Position numbers and translations under genes: made by a program | The notes under the pieces: model-generated | What the model was told of the DNA's origin: nothing | Database searches by the model: none | Seen by the model: only the letters and a program-made list of their open reading frames with translations | Shown: positions 29,903 through 38,044 of the stretch, piece after piece | How positions within the stretch are numbered: position 1 is the stretch's first letter | Layout: the number at the start of each line of letters is the position of its first letter | From: an uncultured Acidiferrobacteraceae bacterium | GTDB taxonomy: Bacteria; Pseudomonadota; Gammaproteobacteria; Acidiferrobacterales; SZUA-150 | Reading direction: 5' to 3' | Assembly (NCBI GenBank): GCA_913009895.1 | Contig: CAJVXY010000007.1 | Coordinates: 22,901-86,900, forward strand | DNA length: 64,000 nt

Positions 29903-31681
29903 ATGGCTGTGACATGGTTTAAGTGGATGGTTCGTCAAATCTTCAGGGTACTGTATCGCGTTGAAATCAAGGGAATGGCACATTATCGTGCTGCCGGTGA
30001 TCGTGTACTCATTATAGCGAATCATACTTCCTTCCTTGATGGTCTTTTTATGACCCTGTTTTTGCCTGACCGACTGGGTTTTGTGATTAATACCTATATT
30101 GCCCGGCTCTGGTGGGTGAAGCCTTTTTTGCGGTTCGTGGATATATTTGTACTTGACCATACCCGCCCCATGGCGATACGAACCGTGATCGATTATGTGC
30201 GTAGCGGTAAACGAGCGGTCATTTTTCCAGAAGGCCGAATCACGTTAACCGGTTCATTGATGAAGGTTTACCAGGGCAGTGGTCTGGCCGCCGATCGATG
30301 CCAGGCGGTCATCCTGCCAATTCGAATCGATGGGGCACAATATACGCCGCTCTCGCGACTGGAAGACCAGGTTCGGATTCGCTGGTTCCCCAGGATACGC
30401 ATGACAATTATGCCGCCGCAGTCCCTGCAGTTGCCTGACGATATGAAAGGTCGCGCCAGGCGCGCCCGTGCCACATTATTTTTATCCGATTTAATGTCCG
30501 ATATGGTATTCAGGACATCCCTCACCATCCGGTCCCTCAATGAGGCCATGCTGGTAGCCCGTGAAGTCCATGGCAAGAACCATATTATTCTGGATGATAT
30601 TCATCGTCGCACCCTGGATTACGATACTTTTCTCGGCATAGTCTGGTCCTGGTCAGGAACAGTAAAAGCCCAGAAATTAGCACGTGCCGGGCTACTCACA
30701 GGCAACAGTATCTCAGCTGCTATCATTTTTTATGGATTGCAATGGACAAACACAACACCCGTACTAATCGATATTAATCTGGATGCGAGAAAAATAAAAA
30801 AAATGTTAATCAGTTCGGGGGTGACAACCGTTTACACATCCCTGAGCATAATGAAGACACTCCGTCGCGAACACCTTATCGAACAACTGGCTGATACATT
30901 GAAGGTTATTGATGTTGACCAGGAAATTCAAAAACTGATCCAGGATCCACCGTCAAAATTATCAACCCGACTGAAGGTTTTCAGCGCCCGAATTAAATTG
31001 AACGAAAAAACTCCAAATTCACCTGCGGCAATTTTATATGCCAGGGACGAGGCAGGTGAATTTCATGAACGAATTTACAGCCACGAAAACTTGTTGGTAG
31101 CACGGCAACAATTTGTAACCAGGTTCGATTTTAATTCTACAGATGTCATGTTTTGTGCCTGGCAGCCATATCACATTAATGGATTATTGATGGGCCTGGT
31201 TTTGCCTGTCCTCTCTGGCATTAAATCCTATTGTTACCCGGTGCCGGAACGATATCGTATTGCATCAGAGCTGATTTATGATGCTGGCACCACATTGCTG
31301 GCAGCACCAGAATCCTGTTTTGCCGGTTATGAAAAATATGCCCATGCCTACGATATGTATCACGTGCGTTATGCGTTTTTATTTGACGCGAGTTCAGTTG
31401 AGTTATTAAAAAAAATCTACCGGCGATTCGGCGTCAGGATTTTGCAGGGTCATGCCGATGCATTCAATGGCCTGATAGTTTCAATTAACACACCAATCGA
31501 AAACAAGTGGGGCTCGCTGGGCAAACCACTTCCAGGTATAACCTTGTCCAGTACCGGGCAGGGCAGTAATAATGACTATCTTTTAAGCAGTGACTCTGTG
31601 CCAGTCAATATCAGGGAGGACCCGGGTATTCCTGTTAAAAATATTTCGATAGATGACGATGGTTACCTGGTCCCGCGTTAA
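29903..31681 (+). CDS. PlsC-type acyltransferase fused to a truncated, degenerate AMP-binding (Aas-like) domain
   Basis: PlsC motifs NHTSFLDG, FPEGRITLTG; C-terminal half aligns by eye with the Aas acyl-ACP synthetase region but lacks its catalytic motifs. Confidence 0.82.
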   Translation: MAVTWFKWMVRQIFRVLYRVEIKGMAHYRAAGDRVLIIANHTSFLDGLFMTLFLPDRLGFVINTYIARLWWVKPFLRFVDIFVLDHTRPMAIRTVIDYVRSGKRAVIFPEGRITLTGSLMKVYQGSGLAADRCQAVILPIRIDGAQYTPLSRLEDQVRIRWFPRIRMTIMPPQSLQLPDDMKGRARRARATLFLSDLMSDMVFRTSLTIRSLNEAMLVAREVHGKNHIILDDIHRRTLDYDTFLGIVWSWSGTVKAQKLARAGLLTGNSISAAIIFYGLQWTNTTPVLIDINLDARKIKKMLISSGVTTVYTSLSIMKTLRREHLIEQLADTLKVIDVDQEIQKLIQDPPSKLSTRLKVFSARIKLNEKTPNSPAAILYARDEAGEFHERIYSHENLLVARQQFVTRFDFNSTDVMFCAWQPYHINGLLMGLVLPVLSGIKSYCYPVPERYRIASELIYDAGTTLLAAPESCFAGYEKYAHAYDMYHVRYAFLFDASSVELLKKIYRRFGVRILQGHADAFNGLIVSINTPIENKWGSLGKPLPGITLSSTGQGSNNDYLLSSDSVPVNIREDPGIPVKNISIDDDGYLVPR

Positions 31682-31724: not shown

Positions 31725-33011
31725 ATGAACAGAAGATCGTTTGTCGCGCTACTGGCCGGTGCCGGTGTATTAGCCGGTGCCTATGCCCTGATCCGACCCC
31801 GGGGCGGGTTTATTAACCCCTGTCTGCAGACACCCATGCCAGACGCCCTTGGCCAACATGAAATCGTACAGGCCGCCTGGCAAGGCATCGATATAAAACA
31901 GTTCTGGGATGTCCATGTCCACCTTGTTGGTCTCGGTCACGGCAATACCGGTGCCCGGGTCAACCCGGATATGCAAAGTCCTGATCATCCATTGCAATAT
32001 GTGCAATATCAATTTTATTTGAACGCATCCTGCGCGCAAAACGCAAAAAATATTGATGCCGAGTATGTGCGACAGCTAAGACGATTACACGAAGGCCTCC
32101 TTAAATCTTTTGAAAATTCCTCTGCTAATACGATGGCCAAATTACCTGGTAAACCAGGCGCGGCCAAGTTGATGTTGTTGGCCTTTGACCAGGTATACGA
32201 TGAGGCAGGGTACAAACAGCCTGACGCCAGCGCCTTTTACATACCAAACGAGTATGCTCAATCCGTGACCAGGTCTTACCCAGATCAATTCGAATGGATT
32301 GCATCGGTTCATCCCTATCGCAAAGATGCCCTGGAACAATTACAGTGGTCAGTCAGTCGTGGTGCCCGGGCAATCAAATGGTTGCCCTCGGCCATGGGGA
32401 TTAATCCTGGTTCACCATTGTGTGATGCTTTTTACGAGGCATTGGCCAGGTTCAATTTACCATTATTAGTCCATGCCGGTAGTGAGATAGCTGTGTCCGG
32501 TCCTGGCGGCCAGGATTTAGGTAATCCGCTGCTCCTGAGAAGACCCCTGGAACGAGGTGTGAGAGTCATTGTTGCCCACAGCGCGTCATCCGGTGAAGGT
32601 GTTGATCTTGACCGGGGTAGCAACGGGGAGATGAAAACGAATTTTGAGTTATTTGCCCGGTTGATGGACGACAGTAATTACCAAAAGAATTTATTTGGTG
32701 AAATATCTGCCATCACCCAGGTAAATCGGGTTGGCCTGCCCCTGGAAACTATACTCAAAAAAGAAAGTTGGCGGGGTCGAATTCTTAACGGCAGTGATTA
32801 CCCCTTGCCTGCCATTTTGCCTTTATTTTCTCTCGAATGGTTACAGCTTAAAGACTACATATCTGCCAGCGAAGCCAGTGTCCTGGCAGATATTCGACTT
32901 TATAACCCGTTATTATTTGATTTTGTGTTGAAAAGGACCATACGTTTCCAGGGGCTCAGGCTGGCCACTGAAATCTTTCACACCAGGCGTTTTTTTATTG
33001 CCGCAAGTTGA
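31725..33011 (+). CDS. Amidohydrolase-family protein (amidohydrolase_2-like) with N-terminal signal sequence
   Basis: MNRRSFVALLAGAGVLAGAYA; FWDVHVHLVG, LPLLVHAGSE, VIVAHSASSGE, ILNGSDYPLP. Confidence 0.78.
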   Translation: MNRRSFVALLAGAGVLAGAYALIRPRGGFINPCLQTPMPDALGQHEIVQAAWQGIDIKQFWDVHVHLVGLGHGNTGARVNPDMQSPDHPLQYVQYQFYLNASCAQNAKNIDAEYVRQLRRLHEGLLKSFENSSANTMAKLPGKPGAAKLMLLAFDQVYDEAGYKQPDASAFYIPNEYAQSVTRSYPDQFEWIASVHPYRKDALEQLQWSVSRGARAIKWLPSAMGINPGSPLCDAFYEALARFNLPLLVHAGSEIAVSGPGGQDLGNPLLLRRPLERGVRVIVAHSASSGEGVDLDRGSNGEMKTNFELFARLMDDSNYQKNLFGEISAITQVNRVGLPLETILKKESWRGRILNGSDYPLPAILPLFSLEWLQLKDYISASEASVLADIRLYNPLLFDFVLKRTIRFQGLRLATEIFHTRRFFIAAS

Positions 33012-36447: not shown

Positions 36448-37902
36448 TTATTGCAATAACCCATCCATGCCTATGGCCGCCAGGCGATTGCGGGCAGTGC
36501 CGCCAATAGTGGTGAAGGCCCCGCCGGCATAGACCGTGCTGCCGTCAATGGCCAGGACCCAAACTGCATTATTGGCATCGGGATTCCAGGCGGTGCTCAA
36601 CACGCCATCCGTTCCTATGGCCGCCAGGCGACTGCGGGCAGTACCGCCAATAGCGTTGAAGAACCCGCCGGCATAGACCGTGCTGCCGTCAATGGCCAGG
36701 GCCGAAACCCTACTATTGGCATTGGGATTCCAGGCGGTGCTTAACACGCCATCGGTACCTATGGCCGCTAACCGATTGCGGACAGTGCCGCCAATAGTGG
36801 TGAAGTCCCCCCCGGCATAGACCGTGCTGCCGTCAATGGCCAGGGCAAAAACCTCATTATTGGCATTGGGATTCCAGGCGGTGCTCAACACGCCATCCGT
36901 TCCTATGGCCGCCAGATTATTGCGGGCAGTGCCGCCAATAGCGGTGAAGGCCCCCCCGGCATAGACCGTGCTGCCGTCAATGGCCAGGGCCGAAACCGTA
37001 CTATTGGCATCGGGATTCCAAACGGTGCTCAACACGCCATCGGTACCTATGGCCGCTAACCGATTGCGGACAGTGCCGCCAATCGTGGTGAATGCCCCGC
37101 CGGCATAGACCGTGCTGCCGTCAATGGCCAGGGCCCAAACCCCATCATTGGCATCGGGATTCCAGGTGGTGCTTAACACGCCATCGGCGCCTATGGCCGC
37201 CAGATTATTGCGGACAGTGCCGCCAATAGTGGTGAAGTCCCCCCCGGCATAGACCGTGCTGCCGTCAATGGCCAGGGCCCAAACCGCATTATTGGCATCG
37301 GGATTCCAGGCGGTGCTTAACACGCCATCCGTGCCGATGGCCGCTAACCGATTGCGGACAGTGCCGCCAATAGCGGTGAAGAGCCCGCTGGCATAGACCG
37401 TGCTGCCGTCAATGGCCAGGGCCCAAACCGCATTATTGGCATTGGGATTCCAGGCGCCCAGGGTGCCATCGGCCTGAATGTGGGCCAGCCGATTGCGGGT
37501 TTGGCCAGCCACGATGGTAAAATTGCCACCGATATACCAGCCGCCATTGCCATCGGCAACGGTGGCACGGATGGCGTCATTGACCTCGGGAAAACCGGTG
37601 GCGGTGATGCCGGTGGTCGCATCCAGGGACGCCCCCCGGCCGGTCACATAATGGACGCTGGTGAAACTGCCGCCAATATATGTGGTGCCAGCGCCGTCCC
37701 GGGCGATAGCATTCACGGTTCCATTGGTGCCAATGCGTAGGGCCGAGGGCAGGACGAGTCCGCCACCGCCACCACCATCACCGCCACTACTGCCACCACC
37801 ACCGCAGGCAGCCAGAATAAAGATGAAAAAGAAGAGAAACCAGGCCTGACAGCGCCGGCGGCCTGGGCTTGTAGCATCGAGACAGGTGCGTATGAACATC
37901 AT
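36448..37902 (-). CDS. Beta-propeller-like repeat lipoprotein (seven 48-aa repeats)
   Basis: MMFIRTCLDATSPGRRRCQAWFLFFFIFILAACGGGGSSGGDGGGGGG, then 7x WNPDANNAVWALAIDGSTVYAGGDFTTIGGTVRNRLAAIGTDGVLSTA; track start 38019 is an extension. Confidence 0.82.
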   Translation of the reverse strand: MMFIRTCLDATSPGRRRCQAWFLFFFIFILAACGGGGSSGGDGGGGGGLVLPSALRIGTNGTVNAIARDGAGTTYIGGSFTSVHYVTGRGASLDATTGITATGFPEVNDAIRATVADGNGGWYIGGNFTIVAGQTRNRLAHIQADGTLGAWNPNANNAVWALAIDGSTVYASGLFTAIGGTVRNRLAAIGTDGVLSTAWNPDANNAVWALAIDGSTVYAGGDFTTIGGTVRNNLAAIGADGVLSTTWNPDANDGVWALAIDGSTVYAGGAFTTIGGTVRNRLAAIGTDGVLSTVWNPDANSTVSALAIDGSTVYAGGAFTAIGGTARNNLAAIGTDGVLSTAWNPNANNEVFALAIDGSTVYAGGDFTTIGGTVRNRLAAIGTDGVLSTAWNPNANSRVSALAIDGSTVYAGGFFNAIGGTARSRLAAIGTDGVLSTAWNPDANNAVWVLAIDGSTVYAGGAFTTIGGTARNRLAAIGMDGLLQ

Positions 37903-38016
37903 TTCATAATCCTTCGCGGGATAAATGGGGTTAGTCGTATTTGCAAAGACAAAGACTAGGAAATGATTGAGGTTATTGCAATAGAGCGCTGGTGAAATCA
38001 GGTGAATTACACCGCA

Positions 38017-38044
38017 CATTTTATTTCATCCAGTCTACGTTTAC
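38017..38044. repeat. 28-bp direct repeat flanking the repeat lipoprotein gene (right)
   Basis: CATTTTATTTCATCCAGTCTACGTTTAC. Confidence 0.9.

Follow-up and report, generated by a model that had tools for sequence, protein, structure and literature searches.

An Aas-like acyltransferase fusion whose adenylation half has lost its catalytic motifs and lid and is kept by purifying selection

In this study, an Aas-like protein, referred to here as pseudo-Aas, was found to join an active-looking PlsC acyltransferase domain to an adenylation core from which the catalytic motifs and the lid subdomain are missing. The gene lies in the window, that is, the whole stretch of 64,000 nucleotides that was analyzed. 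Based on the alignments, gene orders, evolutionary rates and predicted structures described below, pseudo-Aas is very probably a pseudoenzyme under selection.

RESULTS

Domain architecture and loss of catalytic motifs

The 592 codons of the pseudo-aas frame are uninterrupted, and Pfam recognizes two domains in the product (Table 1): PlsC, with 66 bits, and AMP-binding, with 54.5 bits against a cut-off of 29.9 and with profile positions 44–352 of 384 covered. No Pfam match to the AMP-binding_C lid domain (PF13193) was obtained in the protein. The nearest curated models are those of Aas, namely PRK06814 (483 bits, cut-off 1349) and PRK08043 (341 bits, cut-off 886). Both matches stop at residue 547, and the NCBIfam equivalog cut-offs are missed.

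The PlsC half contains NHTSFLDG and FPEGRITLTGSLMK, so that both the HX4D and the FPEGR motifs are present. With approximately 35 intact Aas proteins from the class as the reference for near-invariant positions, the window protein retains 29 of 30 such positions in PlsC, but its adenylation core retains only 32 of 74. Within the window protein, 5 of 28 catalytic-motif positions are kept versus 36 of 62 elsewhere (Fisher p = 5e-4), and the ortholog of genome G004 keeps 3 of 28 versus 43 of 62 (p = 2e-7). For the ortholog of G002, the corresponding counts are 15 of 28 and 40 of 62, a difference that is not significant. The A3 motif, usually TSGSEGxPKGVVLSH, reads ARDEAGEFHERIYSH in the window protein; the A5 motif, usually EGYGATET, reads QGHADAFN; and the A7 aspartate is absent in the alignment to intact Aas. 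The C terminus, ...ISIDDDGYLVPR, ends where intact relatives run on (...DEDGFxxIxGRAKRFAKIGGEMVSL...), and A8, the lysine in LGxGKxDY (A10) and the lid of these relatives lie beyond the end of the window protein. Between the stop codon and the next gene, tblastn revealed no convincing lid remnant; a lid encoded separately just downstream was also considered and was rejected, as none was found. Without a P-loop, without the residues of A5 and A7 and without any lid to supply the catalytic lysine, the adenylation half should be unable to make acyl-AMP or acyl-ACP. All five degenerate proteins of the order share an Asp at position 290, which is found in 0 of 36 intact Aas proteins.

The original prediction, which was made from the DNA letters and their open reading frames, had described an intact-looking PlsC domain, the loss of A3 and A5, a stop at the hinge before the lid and a 592-codon frame without interruption. 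The profile searches for the two domains, the alignment and the tblastn search agree with this description in each respect.

Table 1. Coordinates of pseudo-aas features in the window and of Aas-like fusions with the opposite pattern on other loci
Feature	Coordinates	Strand	Evidence or remark
Pseudo-Aas: PlsC acyltransferase fused to lid-less, motif-less adenylation core	29903..31681	+	592 aa; ORF, Pfam, NCBIfam, alignment, dN/dS
PlsC domain (PF01553), residues 22-142	29966..30328	+	Pfam; 29/30 near-invariant positions kept
HX4D acyltransferase motif, intact (HTSFLD), residues 41-46	30023..30040	+	Sequence, alignment
FPEGR motif, intact, residues 108-112	30224..30238	+	Sequence, alignment
Adenylation core (PF00501), residues 257-547, catalytic motifs lost, purifying selection	30671..31543	+	Pfam, dN/dS, structure model
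Asp290, in all five degenerate proteins; Asn in 35/36 intact Aas	30770..30772	+	Alignment
Former A3 P-loop, now ARDEAGEFHERIYSH, residues 380-394	31040..31084	+	Alignment
Former A5 motif, now QGHADAFN, residues 515-522	31445..31468	+	Alignment
Hinge ISIDDDGYLVPR and stop codon, lid subdomain absent	31643..31681	+	ORF, Pfam, alignment
Amidohydro_2 gene, next gene where lplT is missing; in G005 after lplT	31725..33011	+	Gene order
Mirror-image fusion, L105	192-2390	+	
Mirror-image fusion, L107	308-2533	+	
Mirror-image fusion, L108	470-2674	-	
Mirror-image fusion, L109	150-2318	-	
Mirror-image fusion, L110	1-2262	+	

Distribution in the family, class and phylum

The congener G001 (QIGL01000102.1, Acidiferrobacteraceae MAG, isolate SZUA-150) encodes a 596-aa protein of the same form that is 91% identical to the window protein, and the gene order around it is as in the window. 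In two further genera of the family, represented by G002 and G004, the orthologs stop at the same hinge (...RIDEDGFLWLL... and ...RMDEDGYLWPA, respectively). Their A3 motifs differ from that of the window protein and are equally unworkable, and the A4 stretch also varies by lineage, with YHINGL in the window, SSVYGL in G002 and HNPYSL in G004. A local pseudogene or frameshift is ruled out by the same form in the congener and the two further genera. The fifth family genome, which is 71% complete, gave no match, and pseudo-aas is known from four draft genomes in three genera. No intact aas was found in any of these four (G000, the window's genome, and G001, G002 and G004). The other AMP-binding genes in the window's genome are Acs-like, long-chain acyl-CoA-synthetase-like, a stand-alone Aas-like synthetase and a 458-aa ligase-like ORF.

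The wider sample drew 369 genomes from the class and 399 from the phylum and contained approximately 200 Aas-like frames. Nearly all full-length Aas frames in it measure ~690 aa or more; those below this length are fragments, are close to a contig end or are individually unassigned. Besides the window's own gene, no hinge truncation was evident among the full-length Aas frames of these ~750 genomes. A truncated gene in G048 (L021) was rejected as a further case, since it is a damaged intact aas whose motifs continue in another frame. At the sequence level, the hinge-truncated, motif-less aas is a clade trait of the family.

The phylum also contains a mirror image of this arrangement, in which the adenylation motifs of Aas-like fusions are intact but the PlsC half has diverged or decayed (Table 1). 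Altered FPEGR motifs are seen in L105, L107, L108 and L110. The HX4D histidine of L108 is lost, and this protein has no Pfam PlsC match; L109 falls under the PlsC cut-off.

Origin of the locus

The pseudo-aas loci of the family share the order HIT, ABC ATPase, UPF0014, a 230-aa unknown protein, HU-like, pseudo-aas, FmdB-like zinc ribbon, DUF502 and aspS. Where aas is intact in the order, lplT is next in line. HIT and HU-like genes stand upstream of aas-lplT in G034, and G005 has aas-lplT-amidohydrolase. In the window, the HU-like gene and pseudo-aas are followed ~44 bases on by an amidohydrolase homolog and then by FmdB, DUF502 and aspS. These three arrangements together suggest the ancestral order HU-like - aas - lplT - amidohydrolase - FmdB - DUF502 - aspS, and the ancestor can be read as an ordinary aas-lplT operon that has since been stripped of lplT and of the lid. 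At the same locus in another family, the G029 protein keeps the lid, has lost A3 (VNGADGKPRGVV), the A7 aspartate, A8 and the A10 lysine, and has no lplT; its PlsC half is lost at the contig boundary. G029 is in an intermediate state of loss.

In the full-length tree, the four degenerate proteins of family f1 lie on one side of a branch with support of 97/90, and they are also grouped in the PlsC-only tree (support 88). They do not form one group in the adenylation-only tree, which has long-branch problems.

Several neighboring genes were also noted. The Amidohydro_2 protein of the window has an apparent signal sequence; its homologs occur after or near aas in several genomes of the order and are missing in G002 and G004. 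A link between this protein and lipid turnover is possible. An ORF of ~1207 aa lies near UPF0014 and the 230-aa unknown in G002 and G004 (L067 11709-15338, minus strand; L068 3796-7416, plus strand) and is absent from that place in the window's genus. Elsewhere in the window, positions 36448-38019 on the minus strand encode a 523-aa DUF5122 beta-propeller protein with near-identical tandem repeats (IDGSTVYAGGAFTTIGGTVRNRLAAIGTDGVLSTAWNPDANN).

Selection and predicted structure

The dN/dS ratios were calculated by the Nei-Gojobori method for one pair only, the window and its congener. The whole gene has a ratio of 0.092, PlsC one of 0.071 and the adenylation core one of 0.076 (95% bootstrap interval 0.045-0.115). 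Both halves fall inside the range of the neighboring genes (0.02-0.18), and the 591 aligned codons contain no gap at a dS of ~0.56. The two halves of pseudo-aas are thus under equal purifying selection. Looser stretches are the last 44 codons (0.33) and A3 (0.34, the weakest constraint in the gene), both with wide intervals. The mean identity to intact Aas is 29% for the adenylation core and 51% for PlsC, and the degenerate proteins have very long branches in the core-only tree. As the core diverged faster than PlsC over the long term and has a low dN/dS now, constraint has followed a phase of fast change.

AlphaFold2 modeled the window protein with a pLDDT of 85 and a pTM of 0.87 and the G004 protein with 87 and 0.88, respectively. 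In a Foldseek search with the window model, the best PDB matches were ANL enzymes, and the adenylation half is predicted to keep the ANL core fold.

Neutral decay of the adenylation half, with the PlsC half alone being important, would fit the fast change of the core and its stepwise loss, as seen in G029, in which the lid is present and the A3, A7, A8 and A10 residues are gone, and in G002, which is less eroded than the window or G004. However, a core dN/dS of 0.076, the lack of any indel or stop between congeners at this dS and a frame that is open in three genera largely refute such decay in the window's genus, and we regard it as very improbable. An assembly or sequencing artefact, such as a chimera or a truncated contig, might be suspected because the window's genome is a draft of 73 contigs with signs of mixed strains (one gene block occurs twice), but it is refuted by the agreement of four assemblies, the congener contig and those of the two other genera included, and its probability is negligible. 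The original prediction had proposed a pseudoenzyme rather than a decayed gene and had named orthologs with intact motifs and a full C terminus, or a C-terminal half unlike AMP-binding folds, as evidence that would speak against it. The same-family orthologs are likewise degenerate and truncated, the C-terminal half matches AMP-binding folds both by HMM and by predicted structure, no separate full aas was found in the genome, and purifying selection acts on the core as on PlsC; the proposal therefore stands.

LplT, PldA and a stand-alone synthetase

Of the 57 order genomes, exactly the five with intact aas gave a clear LplT match, compared with 0 of the 52 others. Four of the five exceed the NF008397 cut-off, and G034 has 293 bits plus a second contig piece; G048 is counted with intact aas although its copy is damaged in the assembly. 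None of the order genomes with a degenerate aas has a clear LplT match, and a search of the five family genomes with this single HMM at E<=0.001 detected no LplT. All five encode PldA, which is a source of lysophospholipids.

A stand-alone acyl-ACP-synthetase-like gene with intact motifs occupies a conserved locus in G000, G001, G002 and G004. The one in the window's genome is matched best in NCBIfam by the synthetase portions of Aas proteins. Relatives that are at least 56% identical also occur in families f4 and f6, both without intact aas. The stand-alone synthetase and intact aas never occur together (0 overlaps versus ~0.9 expected, which is not significant by itself). Neither this gene nor the absence of lplT figured in the original prediction. 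In the window's genome, the synthetase exists in two syntenic copies, 91% identical, on L091 and L092 (contigs C6 and C3 of G000); the whole gene block is found twice in this assembly in the same order, probably because two strains were binned together.

Frames of 632-644 aa that match LplT were observed in G009 (C125), G014 (C195), G040 (C132) and G022 (C32). In the first three, the same frame also matches PlsC, giving an apparent MFS-PlsC fusion without an adenylation domain. In the two f6 genomes with such double-matching frames, the transporter and the acyltransferase look as if they worked with a separate synthetase.

DISCUSSION

As reported, Aas of E. coli loads ACP with a free fatty acid and then passes the acyl chain to a lysophospholipid; it has a high-affinity ACP site and can take acyl-ACP from fatty acid synthesis in vitro, although less well (PMC13170283). 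LplT contacts only the transferase domain of Aas (PMC11416262). Since adenylation by pseudo-Aas is implausible from its sequence, the simplest reading is that its PlsC half takes ready-made acyl-ACP, and since the dead half is preserved by selection despite the loss of its chemistry and lid, it probably performs a non-chemical job for the active-looking half. We therefore favor, with a probability of about 50%, a lysophospholipid acyltransferase that uses ready-made acyl-ACP and keeps the dead adenylation domain as a scaffold and/or ACP-docking module. In such a protein, the PlsC half would re-acylate lysophospholipid, made for example by PldA. The acyl-ACP donor might come from fatty acid synthesis or from the stand-alone synthetase-like enzyme of the same genomes, and the dead half would hold the PlsC half in shape and/or dock acyl-ACP beside the PlsC active site. 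A difficulty for this reading is the access of lysophospholipid to the cytoplasmic leaflet without LplT. Moreover, because the core changed fast before settling, the ancestral ACP site may not survive. The lack of any preference for Aas-specific over generic residues among those retained also weighs against it. Net charge was uninformative as a sign of ACP binding. A more specific version, in which the dead domain became a dedicated acyl-ACP receptor for the fused acyltransferase as LplT disappeared and a separate protein took over acyl-ACP synthesis, is put forward tentatively.

The dead half might instead be a structural brace that maintains the fold of PlsC, its place at the membrane or its oligomeric state, without binding ACP or any ligand. 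The fold is predicted with confidence, the former active-site residues differ between lineages, and the positions kept in all three degenerate lineages include generic fold ones (G439, G510, G537, G540, N529 and others), all of which suit a brace. However, A219, D232, R235, Q403, R452, E456, Y459, A480, F509 and R512 are also kept in all lineages. These ten residues are typical of fused Aas and rare in stand-alone ANL proteins and thus hint at an Aas-specific contact; preferential retention of Aas-specific over generic residues, as a sign of contact with PlsC, was tested and was not significant. We consider the purely structural role somewhat doubtful. The original prediction had given acyl-chain or ACP sensing as an example. 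A sensor that controls the PlsC half upon binding of an acyl chain, acyl-ACP or a nucleotide would agree with purifying selection on the domain, and allosteric and scaffold roles are common in pseudoenzymes (PMC10211241). However, the former ATP- and acyl-site positions are not conserved across the three lineages, as the A4 stretch illustrates, and A3 is the least constrained stretch of the gene, albeit with a wide interval. Because the A4 and A5 residues near the acyl/adenylate pocket of the superfamily differ by lineage, they argue weakly against one shared small-molecule sensor; ACP docking would still be possible. We regard a sensor role as unlikely. Finally, a remodeled core with a new catalytic or other ligand-converting activity could account for strong present constraint after a burst of change and for the replacement of Asn by Asp at position 290. 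Among the near-invariant positions, however, no other new residue common to all lineages was seen, and the lid is lacking; we regard a new activity as highly unlikely.

The family amounts to a natural experiment in which the two halves of Aas are uncoupled. If PlsC works only with the dead half attached, a non-catalytic role of the Aas synthetase half, for example in docking or positioning ACP, can be tested directly. If the acyl-ACP-receptor reading is true, lysophospholipid repair in the family would have been rewired around an ANL module without catalytic function. That LplT is absent in parallel suggests that recycling based on it may be given up or built anew without the loss of PldA. There appear to be few descriptions of dead ANL domains that selection has preserved, and the one reported here is fused to an active-looking acyltransferase; the LplT-Aas system is under current study for outer-membrane homeostasis.

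Compared with Aas (E. coli; PRK08043, PRK06814), pseudo-Aas has the same domain order and spacing, PlsC and then AMP-binding, with intact PlsC motifs, and its gene occupies the locus that holds aas-lplT in relatives from the order. Unlike Aas, it lacks the A3, A5 and A7 catalytic residues, the lid and the catalytic lysine, scores far below the family cut-offs and comes from a genome in which no LplT gene was detected. With LplT-Aas recycling (PMC11416262, PMC13170283), it shares the transferase half, which is the LplT contact in E. coli, and a genome with PldA; in contrast, LplT is undetected in the family, and activation of free fatty acids would not be expected of pseudo-Aas. The MFS-PlsC frames of a sister family (G009, G014) resemble it in having an acyltransferase without an active adenylation half together with the same type of stand-alone synthetase, whereas in those frames the adenylation domain is wholly absent and PlsC is encoded together with an MFS transporter domain. 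The open-access literature searched yielded no description of an Aas-type protein with a pseudo-adenylation domain, although this does not prove that none exists, and a review of pseudoenzymes (PMC10211241) contains none of the terms adenylat*, acyl-CoA, acyltransferase and AMP-forming. With pseudoenzymes in general, as treated in that review, pseudo-Aas has in common a catalytic fold without catalytic residues that is kept by selection and joined to an active-looking domain.
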